The notes below the pieces were generated by a model, which ran no database searches, had not been told where the DNA came from, and saw only the letters and a program-made list of their open reading frames with translations. A stretch of 64,000 nt of DNA from Spongiibacter thalassae (GTDB lineage: Bacteria > Pseudomonadota > Gammaproteobacteria > Pseudomonadales > Spongiibacteraceae). Made by a program: the position numbers and the translations under genes. The stretch is from assembly GCF_012272835.1 (NCBI RefSeq), contig NZ_JAAWWK010000003.1, positions 1 through 64,000 of the forward strand. The letters are read 5' to 3'. Below, one piece after another: positions 698-51,174 of this stretch; position 1 is the first letter of the stretch; the number at the start of each line of letters is the position of its first letter.

Positions 698-2464
698 ATG
701 AATACTTCCACTCTCAAGGTCGGTGACGTCGATCTGGCTGATACCAAGGTTTTTGAGCAAGCCGTTCCCCATGACTATTTTGCGCTGCTGCGCCGCGAAG
801 CGCCGATAACCTGGCAGCCCCAGCCAGAAGAGGAGAACGGTGGTTTCTGGAATATCACCCGTTACGCCGATATTGAAGAAATCGAGAAAAATGTTGAGGT
901 GTTTACCAGCCGCTGTGATATCAGCCCCATGCCGGTGCCCCAGTCCACTCTGGAAAACACCATTGATCACTCGATTATTATGAGTGATCCGCCGCGTCAC
1001 GGTTTTTTGCGTCGGTCCATTATGAAGGCCTTTACTCCCAAGGCGATCAAGCAGCTGGAGCAGACAATTCAGACCTGCGCGGTAGATGCGGTTAACGCGA
1101 TTATCGACAAGGGCGAGTGCGACTTGCACGATATGGCTGCGTACACGCCGATAGAAGTCGTGGCTGAAATTCTCGGTGTGCCCGCCCACGATCGTCAGAA
1201 GTTGTTTGATTGGGCCAATGCGATGTTTGGCAGCAGCGATCCCGAACTGTCGGACCCCCAGCGCAATATGATGGGCGCGTTTCAGATGTTTTCCTATGCC
1301 CGCCGTCTGGGCCTGGCGCGCCGGGAGAAGCCCGGTGAAGACGTATTCAGTATGCTGTCTGCCGCCGAGGAAGATGGCGAGCAGCTGAGCGATATCGATC
1401 TTGGCGCCACCTTTATTGTGCTGGCCACGGCGGGTAACGAAACCACTCGAACCCAGTTCCTACAGGGTGCACTGTTGCTGATGGAACACCCTGAGGTGGC
1501 TGCCCAGCTGCGGGAAGATCCCTCGTTGATCGACAATGCCGTTGAGGAAATGCTGCGCCTGACCACGCCGGCCATGTGTTTCGCCCGCCGGGCAACCCGC
1601 GACTACGAGATTAACGGTCAGTTGATTAAAAAGGGCCAGAAGGTTCTGATGTGGTATGTGTCCGGTAATCGGGACGAAAGCGTGTTTGAAAATCCGAATG
1701 TATTCGATATCCACCGCGCCAACGCGAACAAGCATTTGTCCTTTGGTTCCAGCGGTGCGGTGCATCGCTGTCTGGGGGCGAACCTGGCGAGAACGGAATT
1801 AAAGGCGATGTTGTTGCAACTGGTCACTCGCCTGCCAGACATCAAGCTCGCGGGCAAAGTGGATCGTTTGCGCAGCAACTTTACCAACGGTATTAAGCGT
1901 ATGCCGGTAGCGTTCAGTAAAAGCGAGCCAACCGGTGACGCCTCCCATGTCACCATGTATGCCTCGGGCTATGAGGCGGCGCTGAAGCAGGCCGCAGAGC
2001 ACAGTGAACCCGAGGTGATACTGGAAGCCAGCGCCAGTGGCCACGATATTCAGTTGGTGCATTTGGCCAGAGTGGAGTTGCAGCTCGGTGTGCCACAGAT
2101 TATTGCTGAAGGCCCACGGGGTACCCGGCTGATGGTTGATATTACCAAGGCCTCCTGGGAAGGGCCGCGCTTGAAGGCGGTTCAGGCACCGTGTCCTTCT
2201 GGTGACTGGGCAACGGTGAGCCCTGATGGGGCGTTGATGATTGATGTTCGTGCTACGATTGAAACCCACGACGGGGCGACGATATTCGTCACCTACGAGG
2301 GGCGCTCTGACTATTCCAAGGGCGGCACCGCGCCGATTATTGTTACGCCGAAGTTTGAAACCGCTGATCCGCGTTATAGCTGGTTAAACAAGGTGCAGGC
2401 AGTAGGTCGGGGGCGCTCGGAAGGAATGAGCAAGCTGATTTATGAAGTGTACGAAGTGCGCTGA
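698..2464 (+). CDS. Cytochrome P450 with C-terminal DUF3237 domain
   Basis: Residues 1 to about 408 are a bacterial class I cytochrome P450, predicted to hydroxylate a hydrophobic substrate using electrons from a ferredoxin. Visible motifs are the I-helix AGNETT (245-250), ExxR (E284-R287) and the heme-binding loop FGSSGAVHRCLG with Cys358 as thiolate ligand. The AGNETT helix and GANLAR after the loop resemble the CYP125/CYP142 steroid-side-chain group, but the loop is longer than the usual FGxGxHxCxG. Residues about 450-588 match DUF3237/UPF0311 (GTRLMVDI, WEGPRLK, SGDWATVSPDG, DVRATIETHDGA), a small beta-rich domain of unknown function normally found alone. There is no stop or frameshift between the domains, so this is a true fusion. 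A TetR gene follows 12 bases downstream of the stop. Confidence 0.9.
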   Translation: MNTSTLKVGDVDLADTKVFEQAVPHDYFALLRREAPITWQPQPEEENGGFWNITRYADIEEIEKNVEVFTSRCDISPMPVPQSTLENTIDHSIIMSDPPRHGFLRRSIMKAFTPKAIKQLEQTIQTCAVDAVNAIIDKGECDLHDMAAYTPIEVVAEILGVPAHDRQKLFDWANAMFGSSDPELSDPQRNMMGAFQMFSYARRLGLARREKPGEDVFSMLSAAEEDGEQLSDIDLGATFIVLATAGNETTRTQFLQGALLLMEHPEVAAQLREDPSLIDNAVEEMLRLTTPAMCFARRATRDYEINGQLIKKGQKVLMWYVSGNRDESVFENPNVFDIHRANANKHLSFGSSGAVHRCLGANLARTELKAMLLQLVTRLPDIKLAGKVDRLRSNFTNGIKRMPVAFSKSEPTGDASHVTMYASGYEAALKQAAEHSEPEVILEASASGHDIQLVHLARVELQLGVPQIIAEGPRGTRLMVDITKASWEGPRLKAVQAPCPSGDWATVSPDGALMIDVRATIETHDGATIFVTYEGRSDYSKGGTAPIIVTPKFETADPRYSWLNKVQAVGRGRSEGMSKLIYEVYEVR

Positions 2465-2476
2465 CAGGGGGTGGGT

Positions 2477-3193
2477 ATGATGGTGGACGCTGCTGCGCCG
2501 GCGCGACAGGAGAGTGTTTCCGGGGAGGTTTTGGCCGCTGCCGCACGGGTGGTAGCCCGCCTGGGAGTGCACAAGGTGTCGATGGAAGATATCGCCGCCG
2601 AGGCGAAAATGTCCCGGGCCACCCTGTATCGCCGTTTTGGCAACCGCGACATCATTATTGGTGCGCTGATTTCCCAACAGGCGCGCCCCTTTGTTGAAGA
2701 TGCTATCCGCCTGTCCAGTGGTGCAAAGAGTTTTGCTGAGCAGATAGAGATCAACACCGTTCAGGCGGTGTTGAATATCGGCCAGTACAAGGCACTGGCG
2801 GCGATTTTCTCCCAGGGTAATGATCCGCGTAATCTGGTGTTGATTCGCCCGGTGTATCGCGAGGTGGTACTGGTCAACCTGATTCCCTCGCTGGAAGCGG
2901 CCAGGGAGTCCGGGGAGTTGCGCGATGGCCTCGACAACGAAGAAGTTGCCGAGTGGCTGATGCGGGAATTTTTAATGCTGGTGTCCGAGGGGCCGTGGAC
3001 GGCAGAGCGGCTGCGTCGCCGAGTGCGCCAATTCCTGTTGCCGGTGTTGTTGAAGGACATGCCGGGGCAGGCGCAAGTTACCGAAAGCCCCAAGCCGACA
3101 GAGGCCCAGCGGCTCGATAATATGGAAAAGCGCCTGAGTGAAATTCAGCAGGCGGTCGCGCTGATCAGTCACAGTTTGCTGCACAAACCCTGA
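2477..3193 (+). CDS. TetR-family transcriptional regulator
   Basis: A dimeric one-component repressor candidate. The N-terminal helix-turn-helix is clear (VSMEDIAAEAKMSRATLYRR, about residues 37-56), followed by the usual helical ligand domain and a C-terminal tail with a possible short coiled coil (LDNMEKRLSEIQQAVALI). ATG at 2477 is preferred because a G-rich ribosome site (AGGGGG) sits just upstream; a GTG at 2471 is in frame. It begins only 12 bases after the P450-DUF3237 gene and is probably co-transcribed with it, so it most likely controls that P450 in response to its substrate. The palindrome at 650-678 is the obvious candidate site. Confidence 0.85.
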   Translation: MMVDAAAPARQESVSGEVLAAAARVVARLGVHKVSMEDIAAEAKMSRATLYRRFGNRDIIIGALISQQARPFVEDAIRLSSGAKSFAEQIEINTVQAVLNIGQYKALAAIFSQGNDPRNLVLIRPVYREVVLVNLIPSLEAARESGELRDGLDNEEVAEWLMREFLMLVSEGPWTAERLRRRVRQFLLPVLLKDMPGQAQVTESPKPTEAQRLDNMEKRLSEIQQAVALISHSLLHKP

Positions 3194-3313: not shown

Positions 3314-4747
3314 ATGGATCACTCCGTTGGCAACGATCCCAAACGCGCACACGCCCTCGCCAAGCAAATGATCCAGGATATTGTGGCGGGCAGCCTCGGT
3401 GCCGACGCTTTTCTCGGCCGTGAGCCGGTGTTGCTGGAGCGCTATGGTGTCAGCCGCGATACCTTTCGCGAGGCCCTGCGCCAGTTGGAGTGGCTGGGAA
3501 TTGTGCGCACCCAGCGTGGCGCCAGAGGCGGAGTGTATGTGCAGCCCCCGAATCAGTCGGCAGTGGTGAATGTGCTGCGCGACTACATCGATTTTTCACA
3601 ACCCGGCTTTGGCGATTTACTGGCGGTGAGACGGGTGCTTGAGCAGGAATTGCTGCACGCGGCAATTGCTCGCCTTGAAGACCGCGATATCGTCCGTCTG
3701 CGTATTTTGCAGGGGCAGTTCCAGCGGGATATGAGTCGCGAACATTTCGTGATGCTGTTGTTTCGTTTTTATCGGCAGTTGATGGATATCGCCGACAACG
3801 AAGTGATTACCCTCAGCTTGATGCCGCTGCTGTTTGTGACCGTCGATCTGGCCAATTTTGAAACCCTCAGCGACAGCGCCTTCGCCGACAACAGTGAGCG
3901 AGCCTGGCACACCCTCAGTGCGCTACTCGATGAATTGATTGGCGGCAATGTGGTGGCCGCTAGCGGCCTGTTGTTGAGATTCCTCGATTTTACCGGGGCC
4001 TCGGTGCCGGACCAGATCGCCGCGCTGCACAATGCAGAGAGTTATCCCGACTGGTTTGATGCCCGGCGAAATAAACTGGCCAGGGGGCTGATTTACCGGA
4101 TTCATCAGGACATTCGCCGCAGTGGCTGCCAGCAGGGCGACCACCTGGGCACCGAAGCGGAACTGATGGCCCGCTATGATGTGAGTCGCAACACCTTTCG
4201 CGAGGCCTGCCGTGTGTTGGAGGTGGTGGGTCTGGTGGCGGTGCAAAAGGGTCGCGACGGCGGTTTGAAGGTGGCACAACCCCGCCCGGATAATGCGATA
4301 TCGGCGGTGGTGTACTACCTGAACGCCGTCAAGGTGTCTTATCTGAGTCTGACCCGGGTGCGCAATGCGGTGGAGCTTGCTGCGGTGCCTGCTGCGGTGT
4401 CGTCACTGAGCGACCAAGCGGCTGAGCACTTGACCGAGCTGCTTGCTGTGCAGAAAGCGGTGGTGGGTGATAAGCGCTTTGCGGCGGCGGCCATAGCCAC
4501 ACAGAAAGCGATGATTCGTTACTGCGGTAATCCGATCATGATTTTCTACTATGACGCCCTGCTGGACAGTATCTATTACCGCGATCAGGGAGCGGTGGCG
4601 CTGACCAGGCTGATGGAGCACGCCGAGCCAATAACGGCCAGCCAGTCGGTGATTATCGACGCGATGCTGCACCGCGACCGGGCGCTGGCGCGCCGCCGGG
4701 TGCTGCAGCACCATGCTGCCATCGAAAAATACGTTGGCAGCATGTAG
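3314..4747 (+). CDS. Doubled GntR/FadR-type regulator (two wHTH-FCD units in one chain)
   Basis: GntR/FadR regulators are usually about 230-250 residues: one winged helix plus an all-helical FCD effector domain, working as a dimer. This protein is 477 residues and shows the pattern twice. The first wHTH is near residues 10-75 (LLERYGVSRDTFREALRQLE, then GARGGVYV). The second is near 255-330 (LMARYDVSRNTFREACRVLE, then GRDGGLKV). Each is followed by a helical FCD-like segment. It could therefore act as an intramolecular pseudo-dimer or bind two half-sites with different effectors. It is convergent with the aldehyde dehydrogenase gene (5 bases between stops) and lies inside the catabolic cluster, which it may control. 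Confidence 0.85.
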   Translation: MDHSVGNDPKRAHALAKQMIQDIVAGSLGADAFLGREPVLLERYGVSRDTFREALRQLEWLGIVRTQRGARGGVYVQPPNQSAVVNVLRDYIDFSQPGFGDLLAVRRVLEQELLHAAIARLEDRDIVRLRILQGQFQRDMSREHFVMLLFRFYRQLMDIADNEVITLSLMPLLFVTVDLANFETLSDSAFADNSERAWHTLSALLDELIGGNVVAASGLLLRFLDFTGASVPDQIAALHNAESYPDWFDARRNKLARGLIYRIHQDIRRSGCQQGDHLGTEAELMARYDVSRNTFREACRVLEVVGLVAVQKGRDGGLKVAQPRPDNAISAVVYYLNAVKVSYLSLTRVRNAVELAAVPAAVSSLSDQAAEHLTELLAVQKAVVGDKRFAAAAIATQKAMIRYCGNPIMIFYYDALLDSIYYRDQGAVALTRLMEHAEPITASQSVIIDAMLHRDRALARRRVLQHHAAIEKYVGSM

Positions 4748-4752
4748 GGCGG

Positions 4753-6177
4753 TTATAGCATTTTATCGACGAAGCGCTGTTTCTTTTCGGTAGACGGCGG
4801 CGCCAGATATTTCCCCAGACTGAGCAGCCCCTGTTTATACACCGCCTTTTGGTGGCTGAACTGGAGGAAGCCATGGTGGCCGTGGTAGGCACCCATGCCG
4901 CTGTTGCCGACGCCGGCCAGAGGCAGGTCGGGGCAGGTAATATGTTGGGCAACATCGTTGAGGGTGACGCCCCCTGAGCAGGTTGTGGTGAGTACCTTGT
5001 CAATGTGCGGGCGGTTATGGCTGAAGCAATACAATGCCAGCGGTCGCGGTTTTTGATTGACGTAGGCAATGGCTTCGTCAAAGCGCTTGTAGGTCTTTAC
5101 GCACAGAATCGGGCCGAACAATTCCTCGTTGATTATTTTCAGGCTGTCGTTGGGGTTGACCACAAAACGGAACGGCATTTTGCGCGGAGCCTGAGTGAAA
5201 TCCTCGTTGGCGGGGTTCAGTGTGTCGATGCGACAACCCGCCTGTTCCGCCTCCTCGATATAACTGTTCAGTCGTTGCAGATGGCGGTCGTTAATGATGG
5301 AGGTGAAGTCGTCGTTGTCGGCGAAGCGCGGGAAGAAGCCGGTCATGACCCGCTTGGCGTGGTCGAGGAAGGCCTCTAGTTTGTCTTCAGGCAGCAGCAC
5401 ATAATCCGGCGACAGGCACAGCTGGCCGGAGTTCATCGCCTTCATGGTCATGGTGCGCTCGGCGGCCACCGCGATGTCGGCGTCGCTGTCGATCAGCACC
5501 GGGCATTTGCCCCCCAGCTCAAGGGTGACCGGCACCAGGTTGCGGGCGGCGGCGGCCATGACCGATTTGGCAATTTCCGGCCCTCCGGTATAAACAAGGT
5601 GGTCGAAGGGCAGCTGCGAGAAGGCGATGGCCGTATCCACGCCACCGGTGACCACCGCCATTTCGGTGGGGTCGAAGGCGTCGGCCACCATCGTGTGGAT
5701 TACCTCCGAGGTTGCCGGGGTCAGGTCCGAGGGCTTCAGCATCACCCGGTTACCGGCGGCAATTGCACCAATGGCCGGTGAGAAAGCGAGGTAGGCGGGA
5801 AAATTCCACGGTGACATATTGCCGACCACACCCAGCGGTTGATAGTGAATGTGTGCTTTAGCCCCCAGCAGGTTCATCGGCGCGGGGACTTTGCGCTTTT
5901 GCGGGCGCATCCAGCGTTTGATCTCCTTTTGGGTTTCCTTGGCCTCGCGGGTAGCAGACAGCACATCGGTCACCGTGGACTGAAAGCGGCTGCGGTGGCC
6001 GAAGTCTGCCGACAGGGCCTCAATGAGCGCGTCTTTGTAGCGCAGGTGAATATCGGCAATGCGCTTGAGCCGGTCTATGCGAATATCGGCGCTGGGAAAG
6101 CCCTCTTGCATAAAGCTTTCGCGCTGCTTGGCCAGTAGTTGTTGCAACTTGTCGTTGTCCGATAGAGGTGTAGTCAT
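4753..6177 (-). CDS. Coniferyl-aldehyde-dehydrogenase-type aldehyde dehydrogenase
   Basis: An NAD(P)-dependent oxidoreductase that turns an aldehyde into the carboxylic acid. The Rossmann and catalytic motifs are complete: VVGNMSPWNFPAYL, the general base in TLELGGK (Glu220) and the nucleophile in GQLCLSPD (Cys254), then EELFGPILCV. The 474-residue length and GQLCLSPDYV resemble the coniferyl aldehyde dehydrogenase (CalB) branch, whose members also act on other hydrophobic aldehydes. It is the last gene of a probable minus-strand operon, Ldi-like - TetR - ALDH, with 28 bases between it and the TetR gene. That context suggests it oxidises an aldehyde formed from an isoprenoid alcohol; the actual substrate is not visible. 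Confidence 0.85.
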   Translation of the reverse strand: MTTPLSDNDKLQQLLAKQRESFMQEGFPSADIRIDRLKRIADIHLRYKDALIEALSADFGHRSRFQSTVTDVLSATREAKETQKEIKRWMRPQKRKVPAPMNLLGAKAHIHYQPLGVVGNMSPWNFPAYLAFSPAIGAIAAGNRVMLKPSDLTPATSEVIHTMVADAFDPTEMAVVTGGVDTAIAFSQLPFDHLVYTGGPEIAKSVMAAAARNLVPVTLELGGKCPVLIDSDADIAVAAERTMTMKAMNSGQLCLSPDYVLLPEDKLEAFLDHAKRVMTGFFPRFADNDDFTSIINDRHLQRLNSYIEEAEQAGCRIDTLNPANEDFTQAPRKMPFRFVVNPNDSLKIINEELFGPILCVKTYKRFDEAIAYVNQKPRPLALYCFSHNRPHIDKVLTTTCSGGVTLNDVAQHITCPDLPLAGVGNSGMGAYHGHHGFLQFSHQKAVYKQGLLSLGKYLAPPSTEKKQRFVDKML

Positions 6178-6863: not shown

Positions 6864-8762
6864 TTATGTACGGACCGCCAGTCGCAGCTGGCAGCGTCCG
6901 TTAACAGGGGTATCAATATGCGCCTTGCCATCGATGTCAGCGGTGGTGGCGGCAATCACGTTGTCGTGCTCGTCGAGCAACACATAGGGGGTTTCCCCTT
7001 GCAGTCGCGAGAAATGCAAGACGTGGGATTCCCCGGTATCGGCACTGCTGCAGAGCGTCATGCTCAGGGTGCTACCGTCGTTGTCGGCGGCGGCTACCAT
7101 AACATCGGGGTAGGGTACTGACTCCAGACGCGGCCCCCGGCGAATGGACGCCGGCACCTCACCGTGGGCCATACGATACCAGCAACCGGGGGTGGCAAAG
7201 CGCGCAATATGGGAAAAGCACTGGGCCATTACCGAGCCTAGGTGGTGCAGAGCGCCGTCTTTCCAGTCGGTGCCCATTTCCTCGTACCGCTGGCGGGCAA
7301 ATTCATAGATCGCCAGATCGCCCATTTCCTTGGCACTTTGCATCAGGGTTATCCAAAAGAAAACGCCGTTCTTGGTGTAGTTGCCTGCGTCCAGCATGCC
7401 GGGGCCACTGGGTGTCCACGCCGCCATATCGTCGCCGAATTCCTCGTTGAGCATGTATTTTGCGAGTGCCCAATACACCTGGGCGAGCCGCGGCGAGGTC
7501 ATGTTCAACAACCAGATATTGCCCAGATACGCAAAGGGTCCGCCACCGGCAAGGATGATGCCGCTGCGGCTGGACATTATGGTCGCCGTGCGTCCCTCGG
7601 CCATAGTGAACTCGGTTTCGATAATATGGTTGAACTTCTCCAGGCGGTCGAGTCCGTGGCGGGTGCCGTGTACCTTGTCGAACACCAGCGCGCCGGTCAT
7701 GCCGAACAGATTGCAAATCGCAAATACCCAATTGGGTTCGCAGGGAAACAGGCTCAAGCGACTGCGGTCAAATTGCTGGCTGACCACCTCAACAATGCGG
7801 GGGAAGTCGTAGCGAAAATAGCGTTTGGGACCTTCTTTCAGGGTCAGTGCATCGGGAGTTGAGTAGCGCAGATCGTCGGTGGCGCGTTCATAGGCGCCCA
7901 ATGCCAGGGCCCACCAGCCCGAGTACATAATGTTGTCCTTTTTGACCGGGTCGGCGTTAAAGCGGAAATTGCCCAAGGCGTTCTCCACCCGCCAGTAGTG
8001 CCACACCCGTCGATCTTTCATCTTTTCAATCGCCCGGCGCTGAGCCTTGTGGAGGTAACCCGAAAATGCCGGGGTGCGGGAGATTTGCAGGGCGGCAAGG
8101 GCGTAGTTGATTGCTACCAGTTGGTAGCGCCAGGCGGCCTCACGGAACTGGTCTATTTTGACAAATCCGTTGAACTGGTCGATGGGCTGCATTGCCAGAT
8201 TGAGTATATAGCGCAGCGAACCGAGTTCCTTGTCGTCGAGCTCCTCTCCCAGTTCATGGGATTTTTCGGGGGTAATAAAGGGCACTTCGCTCAGGTATTT
8301 ATTCAGTGCCTGTGCGCGGACCTGCTTGGCTTTGCGTTGGTGGCGGCCGTGGTACAGATAGCCCGCGAGCATCGCCAGGCTGATGACCGGCACACTGATG
8401 CTGGCGGCCAGTGAAGGTGGGTTGTCGATACTCCATGCCGCGAGCAGGGCTGGCAGTAGCCAGGCCAGTACCGGAAAGATAAAGCCCCCGACCAGCAGCC
8501 ACAGTACCAGCGAGAGGGCGAACAGCCCCATGCAGAGAACAAACCAACCCGGAGCACCTGCGGCGAGAAAACCGCCGCCCGGCAGCCATAGTCCCAGCCC
8601 GAAGGCCTGATAGCCTGAAGTGAAATCGAGCAGTGTGGGCAGCAGGCCTATTGCGGCGAGCACCGCCCAGATTGTCAGTGCCCGCTGGCGAATGCTGCGG
8701 AGTATGGGGCCACCGCCTACAGGGCTGTTTGCAAAGAGTGTGTCGGGTGCCATGGTGCTCAC
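6864..8762 (-). CDS. Membrane-anchored linalool dehydratase/isomerase-like protein
   Basis: Residues 25-140 hold about four hydrophobic segments (near 28-47, 60-90, 92-110, 120-138). They are followed by a large helical domain with motifs of the linalool dehydratase/isomerase (Ldi/Lis) family: NIMYSGW, RYFRYDFPRIV and FPCEPNWVFAICN. Cys341 and Cys350 are nine residues apart, the same spacing as the active-site pair Cys171/Cys180 described for Castellaniella Ldi. Family members interconvert tertiary and primary allylic alcohols such as linalool and geraniol or dehydrate them to alkenes. The membrane part recalls linalool isomerase, which is membrane-bound, rather than the soluble periplasmic Ldi. 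It starts at GTG 8762, or ATG 8753 in frame, and heads an operon with TetR and ALDH. The real substrate is inferred only to be an isoprenoid-like alcohol. Confidence 0.75.
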   Translation of the reverse strand: MSTMAPDTLFANSPVGGGPILRSIRQRALTIWAVLAAIGLLPTLLDFTSGYQAFGLGLWLPGGGFLAAGAPGWFVLCMGLFALSLVLWLLVGGFIFPVLAWLLPALLAAWSIDNPPSLAASISVPVISLAMLAGYLYHGRHQRKAKQVRAQALNKYLSEVPFITPEKSHELGEELDDKELGSLRYILNLAMQPIDQFNGFVKIDQFREAAWRYQLVAINYALAALQISRTPAFSGYLHKAQRRAIEKMKDRRVWHYWRVENALGNFRFNADPVKKDNIMYSGWWALALGAYERATDDLRYSTPDALTLKEGPKRYFRYDFPRIVEVVSQQFDRSRLSLFPCEPNWVFAICNLFGMTGALVFDKVHGTRHGLDRLEKFNHIIETEFTMAEGRTATIMSSRSGIILAGGGPFAYLGNIWLLNMTSPRLAQVYWALAKYMLNEEFGDDMAAWTPSGPGMLDAGNYTKNGVFFWITLMQSAKEMGDLAIYEFARQRYEEMGTDWKDGALHHLGSVMAQCFSHIARFATPGCWYRMAHGEVPASIRRGPRLESVPYPDVMVAAADNDGSTLSMTLCSSADTGESHVLHFSRLQGETPYVLLDEHDNVIAATTADIDGKAHIDTPVNGRCQLRLAVRT

Positions 8763-9167: not shown

Positions 9168-9977
9168 ATGAGCAGTAAAACGGTATTGGTGACAGGGGGC
9201 GGCAGCGGTATTGGTCGCCAGTTCGTGAGATTGTTCGCTGCGGACGGCTACCGACTGGTGGTGTTCAGTCTTGTACAGAGTGAGCTGGATGACCTGGCCG
9301 TAGAGCTGCAACGGGACTTTCCCACTGCTGAGTCAGTGCTGGTGCAGCAGGATGTTGCCGCCGAAGGCGCAGCCGAAGAAATGCTCGCCTACTGCCAGCA
9401 GCACCAACTCGTTATTGATGTGCTGGTAAACAATGCCGGTTTTTGCGTGTTTGGTGACCATGTGGCGGTAGACGGTCCGCGGGTTGAAAGCATGCTCAAA
9501 CTTAACGTGATCGCGCTGACCCAGATGTGTCGGGTATTCGGTGACGATATGAAGCGTCGGGGCGAAGGCAAGATTCTCAATGTCGGCTCTATGGCGGGTT
9601 ATATTCCTACAGTAGGTATGGCGGCTTACTGCGCCTCCAAAGCATATGTAAATAACTTCAGTGCGGGTATTGCCGCAGAGCTGGCGGATTACGGTGTGCA
9701 GGTGAGTGTGCTGTGCCCCCCTGCGACCCAGAGCAAGTTCATGGCCACTGCCAAGGGCAACGATGACACCGGCCAGGCCGTGGAAAAATTTGTTTCCGGC
9801 AAAATGTTTAGCGCTGAGGAAGTGGCCACGGCGGGCTACCGGGGGTTGTTGGCCGGGAAGCGTCGAATATCAGTCACACCCATGTTGCGTTTTTCCATGT
9901 TTATGATGCAGCTGTTGTCGCCGGATACTCTGGCCAATATCACGCTGAAGCAGGTGAAAAAACTCAAGTCGGCGTAA
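9168..9977 (+). CDS. Short-chain dehydrogenase/reductase (SDR)
   Basis: A classical SDR of about 269 residues. The N-terminal cofactor motif VTGGGSGIGR, the NNAG motif and the catalytic YCASK are all present, so it should be an active NAD(P)(H)-dependent alcohol/ketone oxidoreductase. ATG at 9168 is chosen because TGGAG lies just upstream; an in-frame GTG at 9147 has no such site. The C-terminal end is hydrophobic (FSMFMMQLL), a possible membrane contact. It is the first gene of the rightward operon SDR - P450 - SDR - ALDH and most likely oxidises the hydroxylated product of one of the pathway enzymes. The substrate is unknown. Confidence 0.88.
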   Translation: MSSKTVLVTGGGSGIGRQFVRLFAADGYRLVVFSLVQSELDDLAVELQRDFPTAESVLVQQDVAAEGAAEEMLAYCQQHQLVIDVLVNNAGFCVFGDHVAVDGPRVESMLKLNVIALTQMCRVFGDDMKRRGEGKILNVGSMAGYIPTVGMAAYCASKAYVNNFSAGIAAELADYGVQVSVLCPPATQSKFMATAKGNDDTGQAVEKFVSGKMFSAEEVATAGYRGLLAGKRRISVTPMLRFSMFMMQLLSPDTLANITLKQVKKLKSA

Positions 9978-10050
9978 GGGCCGAGCTGTCCGCCGGCGGC
10001 TTTGTTTACCGGTGTCGGCGGAGCTTTCCAACGAGGTAGTGTGTATAACA

Positions 10051-11262
10051 ATGTTTAAATCCAAAAATAAAGAACCGCGCATTCCCAGCCATGTTCCGGC
10101 GGCAATGGTCTATGACTTTGATATTTTTACAGACTCGGCCCGAGGCGGCGATGTTCACGCAAGCCATAAATCCCTGCACGAAGCCGCGCCGGACGTGTTC
10201 TATACCCCTCATAATGGCGGCCATTGGATAGCAACGCGCATGGAAGACGTGCGTTACATCATGCAAACCCCGGAGTTGTTCTCCAGCCGCAATGCACCGT
10301 TTTCCCCCGATGTCGGCAAGCTGGGTTTGTCGCTGCCGCCCCAGGATATGGATCGCCCGGATCACGCACTGTATCGCCAGTTGTTGATGAAATTCCTATC
10401 GCCGCAAAAGGTGGTAAAGCTGGAGGCCCAGATTCGTGAACTGGCCATCGGCCTTATCGAAGACGTTAAACCCGAGGGCGGTTGCGAATTTATGTCGTCG
10501 GTGTCGGTGCCTATTCCGGTCAAAACCTTTATGGGGCTGATGCATATGGATCAGTCTCGCTACGAGGAGTTTGTGCGCTGGGCGAACGGTATTCTGGCCT
10601 CTGACACCATGCTCAAACGCCTGCCGCCCTTTGTGCGTATGCACTTTTATTTAAAGTCGTTGATTCGTCAGCGCGTAAAGTCGCCCTCTGACGACCCCAT
10701 TAGCATGTTGCTGGCTGCCGAGGTCAACGGTGAAAAACTGACCCACAAGCGCGTATTGGAAATGTGCAACTTACTGTTCCTCGCGGGGCTGGATACGGTG
10801 ACCAACGCCATGACCTTTTCCATTAAACACCTGGCAGAAAATCCGAAATTTCAGCAACAGCTGCGGGACCATCCCGAAAAGATACCCGCCGCGGTGGAAG
10901 AGCTTTTACGTCGCTACGCTTTTCCGAATATTCCCCGGCGTGTCACTCAGGACACCGAACTTGGCGGCGCGAAAATGCGCGCGGGCGACCGCATTATCTG
11001 CAGCCTGGCGGCGGCGAACAACGACGACCGAGTGTTGGACAACCCCGGCGAGGTCGATCTGGAGCGCCCCAAATTCCGTCATATGGCCTTTAACGGTGGC
11101 CCCCATAACTGTGCCGGTGCAACCCTGGCGCGGCTGGAATTGCGAGTATTTCTTGAAGAGTGGCTGGCGCGGATGCCGCCATTCCAGCTCGAACCCGGCT
11201 TTAAACCTGAAATGCGCGGTGGCGCCGTAATGGCAATGGAAAGCCTAAAACTGCGCTGGTAA
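10051..11262 (+). CDS. Cytochrome P450, P450cam (CYP101)-like
   Basis: A 403-residue soluble class I P450. Motifs: I-helix AGLDTVTNAM (245-254; P450cam has GGLDTV), ExxR (E284-R287) and heme loop FNGGPHNCAG with Cys354 as ligand. The stretch PEKIPAAVEELLRR and the C-terminal region after the heme loop follow P450cam closely. Relatives hydroxylate camphor, cineole, ionones and other small terpenoids, which fits the neighbouring Ldi-like enzyme. ATG 10051 is chosen over the earlier GTG at 10012 because P450cam homologues start close to this point. The phenylalanine of the heme loop is followed by Asn instead of Gly, a minor variant. No redox partner is encoded nearby. Confidence 0.88.
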   Translation: MFKSKNKEPRIPSHVPAAMVYDFDIFTDSARGGDVHASHKSLHEAAPDVFYTPHNGGHWIATRMEDVRYIMQTPELFSSRNAPFSPDVGKLGLSLPPQDMDRPDHALYRQLLMKFLSPQKVVKLEAQIRELAIGLIEDVKPEGGCEFMSSVSVPIPVKTFMGLMHMDQSRYEEFVRWANGILASDTMLKRLPPFVRMHFYLKSLIRQRVKSPSDDPISMLLAAEVNGEKLTHKRVLEMCNLLFLAGLDTVTNAMTFSIKHLAENPKFQQQLRDHPEKIPAAVEELLRRYAFPNIPRRVTQDTELGGAKMRAGDRIICSLAAANNDDRVLDNPGEVDLERPKFRHMAFNGGPHNCAGATLARLELRVFLEEWLARMPPFQLEPGFKPEMRGGAVMAMESLKLRW

Positions 11263-11356: not shown

Positions 11357-12112
11357 ATGAGTTTTGATAATAAAGTAGCCATTGTTACCGGTGCGGCCCA
11401 AGGTATGGGTGCCGCCTATGTTCGTTTGCTGAGTCAACGGGGTGTGGCGGTCGCTGTGGCCGATATCAATCTGGAATTGGCAGAAACGGTTGCGGCGGGG
11501 ATTACCGCCGAAGGTGGCAAGGCGCTGGCGGTGAAGGTTGATGTTGGTTCGCCCGAGTCGTGCAAGGCCTGTGTCGAGGCTACCGTCGCGGCCTTTGGTA
11601 AATTGAATTATCTGGTCAACAACGCCGGTTTGCTCAGCGCGGCGACATTGCCGCCCTTGCAGGATATCAATATCGACGACTACCAGCGGGTGATGTCGGT
11701 GAATATGCACAGCGTGCTGTATATGACCCAGGCAGCGGCCCCGGAAATGAAAAAGCAGGGCGGCGGTGCCATTGTTAATACGTCTTCTATCGGTAGCTGG
11801 CAGGCGACTGGCATTTATTCGGTGTCGAAGGCGGGTGTGAATACCCTGTCGGTGAACCTTGCCCACTCACTGGCTGCGGACAATATTCGTGTTAATGCGA
11901 TTGCCCCCGGCACTGTAGATACCGAAGGCATGAAGCCCATTATGTCGGTGGAGCAAATGGCCCAGTGGGCGAAAATGTCCGGTCAGGCTACCGGTGAAGT
12001 GGCAGGGCCAGAGAAAATTGCTGCGGTAGGGGTCTTCCTGTTAAGTGACGAAGCGGCCTTTGTGAATGGTCAGGTGTTCCCCGTAGACGGCGGCACAGTT
12101 ATCCGCATTTGA
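11357..12112 (+). CDS. Short-chain dehydrogenase/reductase (SDR)
   Basis: A 251-residue classical SDR with TGAAQGMG cofactor loop, NNAG, catalytic Ser in NTSSIGS, YSVSK and the C-terminal PVDGG signature. It starts at an ATG behind a strong AGGAGAAA site. ADIN after beta-strand 2 indicates an acidic residue there and hence NAD preference, i.e. an oxidising direction. It is third in the operon, between the P450 and an aldehyde dehydrogenase, consistent with converting an alcohol to an aldehyde or ketone in the same pathway. It differs clearly from the SDR at 9168 and is not a recent duplicate. Confidence 0.9.
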   Translation: MSFDNKVAIVTGAAQGMGAAYVRLLSQRGVAVAVADINLELAETVAAGITAEGGKALAVKVDVGSPESCKACVEATVAAFGKLNYLVNNAGLLSAATLPPLQDINIDDYQRVMSVNMHSVLYMTQAAAPEMKKQGGGAIVNTSSIGSWQATGIYSVSKAGVNTLSVNLAHSLAADNIRVNAIAPGTVDTEGMKPIMSVEQMAQWAKMSGQATGEVAGPEKIAAVGVFLLSDEAAFVNGQVFPVDGGTVIRI

Positions 12113-12140: not shown

Positions 12141-13604
12141 ATGACTAACGAATTCGATTCAAGCTGCCCAGCGGGCTGTCTGCTCATTGGCGACGAAGTA
12201 ATAGAACAGGCGTCCGGCGGCGTATATACCCATATCAACCCCGCCACAGGCAAAGCCCAGGCGGAGATTCCTCTGGCCGGTGTTGCCGAAACTGAAAAGG
12301 CCGTAGCAACGGCGAAAACCGCCTTTGAGATCTGGCGTGGCATGCCCGGTCGCGAACGCGCCGCACTGCTGAACCGCTTAGCTGATCTGATTAAACAAAA
12401 CGCCAGTGAATTTCAGCGCCTCGCGGTGATGGAGGGTGGCACGCCCTTTAGTATGGCTGCCGGTGGTGCCGGATTGGCTGAGGAGTGGACTCGCTACTAC
12501 GCCGGCTGGGCCGACAAGCTGGACGGCCAGGTGGTTAGCAGCTACCCCAGCGATGAGTTTATTTACACCCTGCCTGAACCCTATGGCGTGGTGGGTATTA
12601 TTGTCACCTGGAACGGCCCGTTGATTAGCCTGGGTATGAAGGTGATTCCCGCATTGGCAGCCGGCAATACCGTGGTGGTCAAGCCTGCAGAGCAAACCCC
12701 CTTTGTGGCGGCAATGTTCGGAAAATTGGCACTGGAAGCCGGAATTCCCGCTGGTGTCATTAATATCTTGCCCGGTGCAGTAGAATCCGCCCAGGCATTG
12801 ATCGGCCACCCCGACGTACAAAAAATCAGTTTCACTGGCGGACCTGTTACCGCCCGCAAAATCCTCCACCAATGCGCCGAGCTGCTTAAGCCCTCGGTAA
12901 TGGAGCTGGGTGGCAAGTCAGCCAATATCGTATTTGAAGACGCCGACCTCGACAGCGCCGCGCAACACGCCGCCACCATGAGTGTAGGGTTGTTAAGCGG
13001 CCAGGGTTGCGAACTGCCTACGCGACTGCTCGTGCAGGAAAGCGTGTACGACGAAATGGTCGAGCGCGTGGTTGCCATTGCCAAGGCGCTGCCCATTGGC
13101 GACCCCCGAGATGTGAACACCTTTATTGGGCCAGTCATCAACGAAGAAGCCTGTGAGCGTATTCTGGGAATGGTTGAGCGCGCCAAGGAAAGCGGTGCCG
13201 GTCGACTGGTGCTTGGCGGCGAGCGTCTGGGTGGTGAGCTGGCCGACGGGTTCTTCCTGTCGCCCACCATTTTTGCGGATGTCGACCCCCACAGCGAAAT
13301 CGCCCAGCAGGAAGTGTTTGGCCCGGTGCTGGTGATACAGAAATTCAGCACCGAAGAAGAAGTGATCGACATCGCCAACAGCACCCAATACGGATTGGGT
13401 GGCTATATCCAAACCAACGACCTCAAACAGGCGCACCGGGTTGCCGCTGCACTGCGCACCGGCTTTGTTCATATCAATGGCAGCCGTAACATTCCCGCCC
13501 ACGCCCCCTTCGGTGGCCTTGGCCTTTCCGGCTTCGGCAAAGAGGGCGGTCGTCCGGGTCTGGATGAATTTGTGCGACTGAAAACTGTAAGCCTGGCGCA
13601 GTAA
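12141..13604 (+). CDS. NAD(P)-dependent aldehyde dehydrogenase
   Basis: A full-length 487-residue aldehyde dehydrogenase. Cofactor and catalytic motifs are visible: VVGIIVTWNGPL, FTGGP, the base Glu255 in MELGGKSAN and the nucleophile Cys290 in SGQGCELPTR. It starts 28 bases after the SDR gene and closes the operon SDR - P450 - SDR - ALDH. Its likely role is oxidation of the aldehyde made by the preceding SDR to a carboxylate that can be activated to a CoA ester. It belongs to a different branch from the coniferyl-type enzyme at 4753, so the region carries two non-redundant aldehyde dehydrogenases. Confidence 0.9.
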   Translation: MTNEFDSSCPAGCLLIGDEVIEQASGGVYTHINPATGKAQAEIPLAGVAETEKAVATAKTAFEIWRGMPGRERAALLNRLADLIKQNASEFQRLAVMEGGTPFSMAAGGAGLAEEWTRYYAGWADKLDGQVVSSYPSDEFIYTLPEPYGVVGIIVTWNGPLISLGMKVIPALAAGNTVVVKPAEQTPFVAAMFGKLALEAGIPAGVINILPGAVESAQALIGHPDVQKISFTGGPVTARKILHQCAELLKPSVMELGGKSANIVFEDADLDSAAQHAATMSVGLLSGQGCELPTRLLVQESVYDEMVERVVAIAKALPIGDPRDVNTFIGPVINEEACERILGMVERAKESGAGRLVLGGERLGGELADGFFLSPTIFADVDPHSEIAQQEVFGPVLVIQKFSTEEEVIDIANSTQYGLGGYIQTNDLKQAHRVAAALRTGFVHINGSRNIPAHAPFGGLGLSGFGKEGGRPGLDEFVRLKTVSLAQ

Positions 13605-21691: not shown

Positions 21692-23209
21692 ATGAAGCCA
21701 GTGACGCGTAAATCTGTAATGCCGCTTATTGCCGCAGGTAGCTTAACCTTTGCCAGTACGTTGGTGCTGGCCGCTCCGGGAGCAACTGTTGGCGCGGGTT
21801 CCTCGAGTTCCAGTACATCGCCAATAGGTGGCCACAATTCAAATAGCGGGATGATGGGGAGTACGTCGAACTCCGGGCTGAGTGCTAACGGAGAAATGGA
21901 GGCGGCGCTGGAGACCGACATGCTGCGAGAAGAGGAAGAGGCTCAGGTCTCTGCATCGCAGACATCTCAGGAGTCGGCCAATGCCAAGGTACTGCCCGGC
22001 CTCGAAGAGCCGAACACGAATACTGAGACCGATAGTCAGCCTGCTGGTGAAACAGCGGATAGACTCCCCAATAGTAGAGGGGACTCGGTGGCGGAAAGCA
22101 ATTCATCTCCGACACCCTCAACCGGCGATACCGGAGAGGCTGACAATGCTGCCCCTTCGGCACCTTCTACTGATGATGCAGACCGGTCTCCCGGGTTTTT
22201 TGAGCGCCTCTTTGGTGGTGGAGAGTCTCGCCCTGACTCGGCTGAAGAAACCACAGATACCGCACAGAATAGTGTAGCCGGTGCGGATGCGCCGAATGCT
22301 CCCGACAGTGATAGAGAGATGCCATCCGGCTCGTCGGCGCCTGAAAGTGATCGTGCTGAAAAGGCCCGTGAGTCAGCGGAGGATCGAGTATCCAGTGCAG
22401 AGACTCCGGACAAGCCATCAGCGCCGTCCAGTGACGAGGTCGATCGCTCCCCTGGTATATTGGAGCGCTTGTTTGGAGGGGCGGAGTCAACAGCCGACTC
22501 GGCTGACGAAGCCAAAGATACCGCACAGAATCGTGTAGCCGGTGCAGATGCGCCGAATGCTCCGGACAGTGATCGAGAGATGCCATCCGGCTCGTCGGCG
22601 CCTGAAAGTGATCGTGCTGAAAAGGCCCGTGAGTCAGCGGAGGATCGAGTATCCAGTGCAGAGACTCCGGACAAGCCATCAGCGCCGTCCAGTGACGAGG
22701 TCGATCGCTCCCCTGGTATATTGGAGCGCTTGTTTGGAGGGGCGGAGTCAACAGCCGACTCGGCTGACGAAGCCAAAGATACCGCACAGAATCGTGTAGC
22801 CGGTGCAGATGCGCCGAATGCTCCGGACAGTGATCGAGAGATGCCATCCGGCTCGTCGGCGCCTGAAAGTGATCGTGCTGAAAAGGCCCGTGAGTCAGCG
22901 GAGGATCGAGTATCCAGTGCAGAGACTCCGGACAAGCCATCAGCTCAGTCGACCCCTTCCACTGCTGAGGTCGATCGCTCCCCCAGCTTGTTTGAGCGTC
23001 TGTTCGGCGGAGTGGATTCCAACAAAGATGCTGAACCGGTCCGTGAGGCTTTTGGTCGGCTCGATGTTGATGATGATGAGTTGATCTCTCGTCAGGAAGC
23101 TGACGGCAGCCGCCAAGTGAATGCCAATTTTGATGCTCTGGACGCTGACGGCAGCGGGCACCTCAATAGGGAGGAGTTCAGCAAGATCCAGAGTCTTGCC
23201 AGTAAGTAA
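21692..23209 (+). CDS. Secreted acidic repeat protein with C-terminal EF-hand
   Basis: The 505-residue product has a signal peptide (about 1-28, ending LVLAAPG), a Ser/Gly/Asn-rich low-complexity part, then units of 87 residues (261 bases). Each unit opens with a short hydrophobic motif, SPGFFERLFGG, SPGILERLFGG (twice) or SPSLFERLFGG, followed by an acidic disordered stretch. Units 2 and 3 are identical in DNA over almost their whole length, pointing to recent tandem duplication. The end holds a degenerate EF-hand (LDVDDDELISRQE) and a canonical calcium loop (DALDADGSGHLNREEF). No family is recognised for the repeats. The product is presumably periplasmic or extracellular and calcium-binding; the ERLFGG motifs could be docking sites. 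A strong terminator follows. Confidence 0.85.
   Translation: MKPVTRKSVMPLIAAGSLTFASTLVLAAPGATVGAGSSSSSTSPIGGHNSNSGMMGSTSNSGLSANGEMEAALETDMLREEEEAQVSASQTSQESANAKVLPGLEEPNTNTETDSQPAGETADRLPNSRGDSVAESNSSPTPSTGDTGEADNAAPSAPSTDDADRSPGFFERLFGGGESRPDSAEETTDTAQNSVAGADAPNAPDSDREMPSGSSAPESDRAEKARESAEDRVSSAETPDKPSAPSSDEVDRSPGILERLFGGAESTADSADEAKDTAQNRVAGADAPNAPDSDREMPSGSSAPESDRAEKARESAEDRVSSAETPDKPSAPSSDEVDRSPGILERLFGGAESTADSADEAKDTAQNRVAGADAPNAPDSDREMPSGSSAPESDRAEKARESAEDRVSSAETPDKPSAQSTPSTAEVDRSPSLFERLFGGVDSNKDAEPVREAFGRLDVDDDELISRQEADGSRQVNANFDALDADGSGHLNREEFSKIQSLASK
22181..22972 (+). repeat. Three tandem 261-base coding repeats
   Basis: Units begin at 22181, 22442 and 22703, and a partial fourth at 22973. 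Units 2 and 3 match base for base until the last few codons; unit 1 is diverged at its beginning and end. The third unit is nine bases longer at its end. The period is a multiple of three, so copy number can change without breaking the frame. Long open frames on the other strand across this stretch are a by-product of the repeat. Confidence 0.9.
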
Positions 23210-49587: not shown

Positions 49588-51174
49588 TTATTTGCCCCGC
49601 CATTTCATCTGATAGAGGTCGTGGCGGCGGTCGCGCAGGTTCTGCACTGTGCCGCTGTTCCTGGCCATGTGCAGGGCCTCTGGTCTGAGGTCGGCGATCG
49701 CGACGGTTTCCACGTTGGGGGTCGTGTCAGCGGCGATGCCATCTCGGGCAAAGGGGAAGTCGCAGGGGGTCAGAATGCAGCTCTGTGCGTACTGGATATC
49801 CATATTCGCGACATTGGGCAGGTTGCCAACGTTGCCGGACATCACCACGTAAATCTGGTTTTCCACCGCCCGGGCCTGACAGCAATAGCGCACCCGCAGG
49901 TAGCTCTGTCGCTCGTCGGTACAGAAGGGGACAAACAGAATCTGCGCGCCCTGGTTGACGAGGTGTCTGGACAGCTCGGGGAATTCCGAGTCGTAGCACA
50001 CCAGTACGCCAATGGGTCCGCAGTCGGTGTCGATGGCGTGGAGTTCGTTGCCGCCTTCTATATTCCACCAGTAGACTTCATTGGGTGTCGGATGAATTTT
50101 TGGCTGCTCGTCGATACGGCCGTCGCGGTGGAAAACGTAGGAAATATTTTCGACGCGGCCATTGGGCACCCGGGTCGGGTGGGAACCGCCAATAATATTG
50201 ATGTTGTAGCGCACCGCCAGGTCTTGCATGGCTTCGCGGAAGCGCGGGGTGTATTTGGTCAGGGCCTCAATCGACTGGATCGGCGTGAGCTCCTGATCCT
50301 CGATCGACAGCAGCTGCAGCGTAATCAATTCGGGGAATACGACAAAGTCGGCTTTATAGTCGGCGACGACGTCGACAAAGTATTCGACAAAGGACATAAA
50401 CTCATTAAATGAGCTGACCTTGCGCTGCATATATTGCACGGTGCCGACGCGGATGGAATCGGGCTGGCGACCGCCATAGCGTTTTACCTGGGCGCCGTCT
50501 TCATCCCGTTGTATTTTCGGGTTATGCCACACCAAATGGGCGCCGTAGCCCATGGAATCGCGGTCGGTGGACAGGTAGTTTTCAACCAGTCCCAGCGACT
50601 CAAAGCCATTGCGAATCTGAAAAGACAGCACCGGATCATTGGTCTGCTTGTTGATAACAGCGTCCAGGTAGGCCTGGGCGGTGCCGAATTTACGCATACG
50701 GCGGGCCAGACCGGGCAGTCGTCCGACAAAGACGATGCCCTTGAGTTTGAGATTTTCACAGAGTTTCTTCCGTGCGTTGTACAGTCGCTGGCCAATTCGA
50801 TAGCCGCGCACCGTTTTATCAACACAGACCTCCATGCCGTACAGCCATTCGCCATTGGGGTCGTGGCGGCTGCCGTAGCCGTTGGCGGTTATCGACTCCC
50901 AGGTATGGGGTTTCAGGCAGACATTGCCGCTGATACGAAAGGTCGCGCAGTAGCCGACCACGTCGTCGTCGAGGGTGACGACGAATTTACCCTCGGGGAA
51001 ATTATTCAGTTGGCCGCGTAATTCCGCCGCTGAATAGGGGTCGATGCCGGTGCCGTTGTACACCCGGCGGGACAGATTGGCGATGCCGGGAATGTCGGCA
51101 ACCGTCGCGTTGCGAACTCGCAGCCGCTTGCCTGAGGCAGTGAGGTTTTCACCGCCCCGTGAAGAATTACTCAT
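49588..51174 (-). CDS. GNAT N-acetyltransferase fused to a carbon-nitrogen hydrolase (nitrilase family)
   Basis: A 528-residue two-domain protein. The N-terminal 210 residues are a GNAT acetyltransferase (VRNATVADIPGIANLSRRVY, then the acetyl-CoA loop VRGYRIGQRLYNARK). The rest, from about residue 240, is a nitrilase-fold amidase with the full triad: Glu in FVVFPELIT, Lys in EQPKIHPTPNE and Cys in GVLVCYDSEFPE. It could acetylate an amine and hydrolyse an amide or carbamoyl compound. It lies near the polyamine genes, which makes an acylated or carbamoylated polyamine a possible substrate, but this is speculative. The two-domain layout is known as a bacterial fusion type. Confidence 0.88.
   Translation of the reverse strand: MSNSSRGGENLTASGKRLRVRNATVADIPGIANLSRRVYNGTGIDPYSAAELRGQLNNFPEGKFVVTLDDDVVGYCATFRISGNVCLKPHTWESITANGYGSRHDPNGEWLYGMEVCVDKTVRGYRIGQRLYNARKKLCENLKLKGIVFVGRLPGLARRMRKFGTAQAYLDAVINKQTNDPVLSFQIRNGFESLGLVENYLSTDRDSMGYGAHLVWHNPKIQRDEDGAQVKRYGGRQPDSIRVGTVQYMQRKVSSFNEFMSFVEYFVDVVADYKADFVVFPELITLQLLSIEDQELTPIQSIEALTKYTPRFREAMQDLAVRYNINIIGGSHPTRVPNGRVENISYVFHRDGRIDEQPKIHPTPNEVYWWNIEGGNELHAIDTDCGPIGVLVCYDSEFPELSRHLVNQGAQILFVPFCTDERQSYLRVRYCCQARAVENQIYVVMSGNVGNLPNVANMDIQYAQSCILTPCDFPFARDGIAADTTPNVETVAIADLRPEALHMARNSGTVQNLRDRRHDLYQMKWRGK

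Follow-up and report, generated by a model that had tools for sequence, protein, structure and literature searches.

Cytochromes P450 of the families CYP125, CYP142, CYP268 and CYP124 oxidise the branched ends of isoprenoids and sterol side chains, and by the nomenclature rule membership in a CYP family is assigned at more than 40% identity to its members. PhnH of Penicillium herquei (PDB 6jjs, 6jjt), which matches the DUF3237 profile at 9.8e-12, reportedly catalyses an intramolecular hydroalkoxylation, in work said to have appeared in J. Am. Chem. Soc. in 2017. In the available text of a study on bacteria, PinX contains a DUF3237 domain, is 42% identical to PhcG and 38% to PhcF, and its deletion led to a stronger build-up of lariciresinoate than in other mutants (PMC12607616). 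The accessible parts of a 2026 review describe PhcF/PhcG and PinX as homologous decarboxylases, which release CO2 and introduce a double bond, while PinX also opens the furan ring (PMC12997858). Here, we describe a protein in which a CYP125-like P450 and a DUF3237 domain are joined; it is encoded in a stretch of 64,000 nucleotides from Spongiibacter thalassae (contig NZ_JAAWWK010000003.1, positions 1 to 64,000 of the forward strand), in the following called the window. An initial annotation, made from the letters of this stretch, had held that DUF3237 has no assigned function and that the fusion could give it its first biochemical context. The former statement is out of date because decarboxylase roles are reported for PinX, PhcF and PhcG, and the structure of one member, PhnH, has been solved; the latter is not supported either, given the phenotype of the pinX deletion and the naming as decarboxylases.

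Architecture and history of the fusion

The P450–DUF3237 fusion is real, a new combination of two known families that is rare but conserved. The initial annotation had read the frame correctly, as one uninterrupted reading frame joins two complete Pfam domains:

698–2464, + strand: P450–DUF3237 fusion protein, 588 amino acids
698–1921, + strand: CYP125-like cytochrome P450 domain, approximately residues 1–408, with heme ligand Cys358, AGNETT at 245–250 and ExxR at 284–287
1922–2047, + strand: linker, approximately residues 409–450, low in both model confidence and conservation
2048–2464, + strand: DUF3237 domain, residues 451–588 and stop codon (domain itself 452–587)

The P450 half belongs to the cytochrome P450 superfamily by its Pfam match (1.3e-30; 107 bits at a cut-off of 22.8), and in phmmer residues 1–417 align to the full length of one solved P450. 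The DUF3237 half (PF11578) scores 4.6e-25 (88.5 bits at a cut-off of 24) and covers positions 2–149 of the 149 in the profile. Cys358, the I-helix motif AGNETT and E284-x-x-R287 lie where they had been annotated and are invariant across the three fusions described below. The heme loop FGSSGAVHRC was considered as a special trait on account of its length and dropped, the loop of the CYP125 ancestor being equally long. Since Pfam reports only p450 and DUF3237, and neither a reductase nor a ferredoxin domain, the protein falls outside the class of self-sufficient fused P450s. The best NCBIfam matches of the fused P450 and of the dehydrogenases nearby were all below the cut-off or too general to provide a name. 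Among solved proteins, the P450 domain is closest to a reconstructed CYP125 ancestor (CYP125MRCA; 45–46% identity), and it shares 36% with CYP268A2, solved with pseudoionone, 35–36% with CYP124, 34–36% with CYP125 of Mycobacterium tuberculosis and 30–33% with CYP142, which bears out its earlier designation as CYP125-like.

For the DUF3237 half, a high-confidence structure prediction gives the family barrel, as had been proposed for residues 450–588; at a greater distance, this fold resembles the barrels of allene oxide cyclase, dirigent proteins and Diels-Alderases. The model is poor in the linker, where block means of the predicted local distance difference test (pLDDT) fall as low as 53.

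A scan of 84,980 species genomes (genome_contigs) with six exact peptide patterns, which reaches close relatives and which distant fusions could escape, returned 37 loci. The search for the same two-domain architecture that the annotation had suggested thereby yielded two further fusions, one in a metagenome-assembled genome (MAG) of Zhongshania (L004; genome G018, treated here as a genus-mate of the window genome; 86% identity) and one in a Cellvibrionaceae MAG (L003; G021; 64%). The stand-alone arrangement that it had also proposed to look for, a DUF3237 gene next to a CYP125-like P450, was found in Pseudomonas putida 31753 (L005), where the P450 gene ends at 9314, DUF3237 follows after 14 nucleotides (9329–9751) and is in turn followed by a TetR gene with its start at 9748; a second Pseudomonas genome (G543) has the same gene order. 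In the genome G443 the P450 and DUF3237 genes lie 3 kb apart on opposite strands, and in Herbaspirillum autotrophicum (L039) the P450 has no adjoining DUF3237. At the other 33 of the 37 loci only one of the two domains was matched, at 31–42%.

Both domains evolve under purifying selection. Towards the Zhongshania fusion, the ratio of non-synonymous to synonymous substitution rates (dN/dS) is 0.035 for the P450 and 0.064 for DUF3237, and towards the Cellvibrionaceae fusion it is 0.169 for DUF3237, the P450 comparison being saturated; these values are rough because dS is at least 1.6 in all comparisons. The Zhongshania and Cellvibrionaceae proteins are 88% and 68% identical to the window protein in the P450 domain and 74% and 40% in the linker, respectively, and the DUF3237 domain shares 84% with the former. 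An assembly error or a pseudogene is ruled out by the low dN/dS and by the recurrence of the same frame in three genomes.

In a maximum-likelihood tree of 17 P450 rows, a single clade of seven (support 100/100) unites the fusions with the split pairs, G443 and Herbaspirillum, and within it the three fusions group at 100/99. In the tree of 40 DUF3237 rows, built by the same method, the six P450-linked domains form one clade (100/100) and the three fusions come together at 86/95, a node without a star. The only DUF3237 gene of Herbaspirillum lies elsewhere in its genome and falls into a different clade. The neighbouring split genes in two Pseudomonas genomes, together with the single clade of six, point to an old partnership that turned into a fusion; the simplest reading of these sequences would be one fusion event, with DUF3237 lost or absent beside the Herbaspirillum P450.

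The architecture is rare. In all of the 21 family genomes except the window genome (G000) and G018, the best match, weaker ones being listed in part, ends at or before residue 444, thus covering the P450 only. Beyond these two genomes, no P450 fusion was present among the DUF3237 matches listed in the scans of the class (369 genomes), the phylum (398) and the order (371; matches at 1e-20 or better). Among the listed matches, frames of at least 540 residues, the length required for a fusion, occurred besides G000 and G018 only in L078, G740 (L170) and G728 (L171), and these candidates were rejected because the P450 profile gave no match there; L171, L174 and L175 contain DUF3237 alone in Pfam and appear to be open frames of GC-rich DNA. 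None of 1305 matching plasmid records covers 80% of the fusion, and the DUF3237 matches on plasmids (24 records) are all below 60% identity. In the accessible parts of the literature on DUF3237/UPF0311/PF11578, including PMC12607616 and PMC8262933, no P450–DUF3237 fusion is described.

A general link of DUF3237 to P450s was considered and rejected. In 52 fetched neighbourhoods (16 + 19 + 17), which are matches listed by the searches rather than a random draw and of which some have flanks shortened by contig ends, the DUF3237 profile recovered its domain in 51, and a P450 profile built from 17 rows, this clade included, found a P450 in four (L097, L141, L142 and L158), two of them (L141 and L142) with a P450 of the same clade as the fusion. 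Two of six further DUF3237 neighbourhoods contain another P450 (L201 and L202). Close adjacency is thus a property of this clade. The window genome contains a second, free-standing DUF3237 gene (G000:C1:49680-50120; loci L001 and L094), which lies in an operon-like run with genes for an EthD-domain protein, a zinc-type medium-chain reductase and an enoyl-CoA hydratase/isomerase.

Gene surroundings and the Ldi-like neighbour

Downstream of the fusion, the following genes accompany it:

2471–3193, + strand: TetR-family regulator, directly downstream of the fusion (TetR_N 2.4e-12)
4753–6177, − strand: aldehyde dehydrogenase, MdlD-like (Aldedh 1.7e-71; the MdlD model scores under its cut-off)
6864–8762, − strand: linalool dehydratase/isomerase (Ldi)-like protein, predicted to be membrane-anchored, 632 amino acids (PF18566 8e-70)
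10012–11262, + strand: second P450 (p450 2.3e-26)
11357–12112, + strand: short-chain dehydrogenase (SDR), kept in the clusters L003 (68%) and L005 (58%)
12141–13604, + strand: aldehyde dehydrogenase (Aldedh 2e-155), kept in L003 (72%) and L005 (74%)

TetR homologues lie beside the pair in L003, L004 and L005 (with TetR_N in L003 and L005) and, by similarity, in L141 and L142. The aldehyde dehydrogenase at 4753–6177 is 76% identical to its counterpart in L004 and has weaker relatives near the pair in L003 (34%) and L005 (36%), and the second P450 shares 38% with the second P450 of the P. putida cluster. L003 further encodes a zinc alcohol dehydrogenase, which is close to benzyl alcohol dehydrogenase and has relatives in L005, L141 and L142, and the L003 cluster also includes thiolase-like and ChsH2-like genes.

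The Ldi-like gene, 4.4 kb from the fusion, tends to co-occur with the P450–DUF3237 pair. In Pseudomonas, Ldi is present in two of 199 genomes (G023 and G543), both of which have the adjacent pair, and G443 has neither the adjacency nor Ldi; in the family it is present in three of 21 genomes, two of which carry the fusion. The distance to the fusion or pair is 7 kb in G543, about 8 kb in G021, about 14 kb in G018 and about 41 kb in G023. One-sided Fisher tests gave 1.5e-4 in Pseudomonas, where three genomes carrying the DUF3237 clade (G443 being counted) were set against two Ldi carriers, 0.010 there without the seed genome G023 and 0.014 in the family, values that are indicative only since the genomes are not independent. 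In the order, nine of 371 genomes carry Ldi and two the fusion, so that most Ldi carriers are without it. The Ldi genes nearest to the pair belong to different subclades, the window protein being 31% identical to the copies of G018, G021 and G023 and 41% to the near copy of G543. Four Ldi-like genes are present in the window genome, three of them on contig C1, and none in 18 of the 21 family genomes. In G018 an Ldi gene is accompanied by genes for an acyl-CoA ligase, an acyl-CoA dehydrogenase and MaoC-like, thiolase-like and ChsH2-like proteins, one Ldi gene on contig C1 lies with thiolase-like and ChsH2-like genes, and a second Ldi copy of G543 is flanked by homologues of the SDR and aldehyde dehydrogenases of the window.

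With its PF18566 domain and an N-terminal anchor, the Ldi-like protein can be placed by sequence in the linalool isomerase/dehydratase class. Three hydrophobic segments lie within its first 136 residues (Kyte-Doolittle), and the grand average of hydropathy (GRAVY) is 1.12 over the first 139. Both cysteines of the motif CEPxxxxxxCN, which are presumably the catalytic ones in Ldi, are kept in 10 of 10 distinct aligned homologues; the residue aligned to the His of the Ldi motif NIMYKGH is a Trp in the window protein. The match to solved Ldi, from Castellaniella defragrans, is weak (2e-9), the two proteins having the domain in common at remote similarity. Lis of Thauera linaloolentis, in the available text of PMC4791888, has 644 residues and a hydrophobic N-terminal anchor with a GRAVY of 0.94 and four predicted segments. 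As far as this description goes, Lis follows the same plan as the neighbour (644 vs. 632 residues, hydrophobic N-terminus). Background on linalool and myrcene is given in PMC7794910, PMC4847356, PMC10386936 and PMC13111069, the accessible parts of which do not mention DUF3237.

Several further observations concern the surroundings. A regulator of 477 residues at 3314–4747 (+) contains two GntR and two FCD stretches, an apparent tandem duplication of a GntR-FCD unit, and has a homologue of the same length in L004 (65%). The G443 cluster (L142, 2644–18313) also encodes a GMC oxidoreductase, an FMO-like flavin monooxygenase and epoxide-hydrolase-type, DUF1302 and DUF1329 proteins. Farther away in the window, a protein of 505 residues (21692–23209, +) contains long near-identical internal repeats (DRSPGILERLFGGAESTADSADEAKDTAQNRVAGADAPNAPDSDREMPSGS...) and has a weak C-terminal EF-hand match. 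An open reading frame of 528 residues (49588–51174, −) has a carbon-nitrogen hydrolase domain at 242–499, preceded by about 240 residues without a Pfam match; this front part looks N-acetyltransferase-like by eye alone, and Pfam did not find an acetyltransferase domain there.

Possible functions of the tethered barrel

We tentatively favour the view that the fusion is a catabolic enzyme which converts branched isoprenoid alcohols, probably acyclic ones, in two steps, the P450 acting before the barrel. Electrons would reach the CYP125-like P450 from a ferredoxin and a ferredoxin reductase, both separate proteins. By Pfam, L003 has separate Fer2 genes near the fusion, while L005, L039 and L141 have Pyr_redox_2/Reductase_C genes, likewise separate, near the P450; no ferredoxin was named in the first 21 kb of the window, where short open reading frames were not searched by family. 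Judged by its relatives CYP125, CYP124 and CYP268, the P450 would most likely oxidise the branched methyl end or a double bond of a terpenoid. By analogy to allene oxide cyclase, which converts what allene oxide synthase, a P450, produces, the tethered barrel would most likely perform the next, cofactor-free step, an acid-base reaction on the oxygenated product (cyclisation, ring opening or elimination). Such a follow-up reaction by DUF3237, already suggested by the initial annotation, is plausible given the fold and the relatives. Alcohol and aldehyde dehydrogenases, CoA ligases and acyl-CoA dehydrogenases downstream would complete the breakdown of the chain. The pair is placed in a catabolic route that probably rearranges an isoprenoid-like alcohol, oxidises it to an acid and carries it on as CoA intermediates; we infer the substrate, the catalysis by the barrel and the passage of the product between the domains. 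Somewhat doubtful is the version in which the fusion is a bifunctional oxygenase-cyclase or oxygenase-lyase, whose P450 generates a short-lived epoxide or hydroxy-enal of an isoprenoid and whose barrel closes or opens the ring before the intermediate escapes.

Small beta-barrels are commonly ligand binders, and the long, poorly conserved linker would tolerate a loose tethering, so that DUF3237 might instead be a non-catalytic module which captures a hydrophobic substrate or a toxic product, for delivery to the P450 or removal from it; we regard this as unlikely, as the conserved polar residues of the family are retained in all six P450-linked rows and the DUF3237 members for which a role was found in the accessible sources are enzymes. 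Less probable still is a function in the degradation of sterol or bile-acid side chains, with the P450 as a CYP125-type C26 hydroxylase and DUF3237 acting on a steroid intermediate. It would agree with the nearest solved P450, the CYP125 ancestor at 45%, which was solved with sitosterol, and sterol side chains are kept as a candidate substrate because thiolase-like genes, which we take to be Ltp2-like, and ChsH2-like genes accompany the fusion in the cluster of L003 and the Ldi gene in the clusters of G018 and contig C1. Against it speak the identity of just 34–36% to the natural CYP125 of M. tuberculosis and the co-occurring neighbour, which is an Ldi-like gene, for which we know of no steroid role. 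That the fusion merely fixes equal amounts of two proteins acting at different points of a pathway, without one domain passing anything on to the other, appears very unlikely: the genes are separate in P. putida, where their spacing of 14 nucleotides makes co-expression likely already, and 3 kb apart in G443, but the fusion has been kept in two families despite nearly saturated synonymous sites.

Through the fusion and the split form, an enzyme family that is still poorly understood becomes linked to one P450 clade, so that a single assay of the P450 alone, the barrel alone and both could give the barrel a reaction. If the link to Ldi holds, an aerobic route for isoprenoid alcohols would exist in marine bacteria and pseudomonads, of which we found no description. 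A naturally tethered pair of a P450 and a barrel with a cyclase fold would also be of interest to enzyme engineers.

Comparison with known systems

The nearest kin of the P450 domain are the CYP125, CYP124, CYP142 and CYP268 enzymes, whose solved chains of about 400–440 residues end without a C-terminal barrel, unlike the fusion. With PhcF, PhcG and PinX the locus has in common the DUF3237 domain (of PinX), a catabolic role and the occurrence in Proteobacteria, whereas these enzymes act, as far as their available descriptions go, on aromatic acids of lignin-dimer pathways, and no P450 fusion is told of there. PhnH differs in being fungal, in its chain of 149 residues without a P450 and in the GADW motif, which is missing in the alignment. 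The best functional analogy is the pair of allene oxide synthase (CYP74) and allene oxide cyclase, which, unlike the fusion, are two separate proteins; our literature search found no natural fusion of a P450 to an allene oxide cyclase. The barrels of allene oxide cyclase and DUF3237 share about 10% identity, and a different chemistry is to be expected. Should the fusion be an oxygenase-cyclase, isoprenoids would join the known DUF3237 substrates, and the protein would be the counterpart, in a single polypeptide and used for breakdown, of the allene oxide synthase–cyclase pair of plants.
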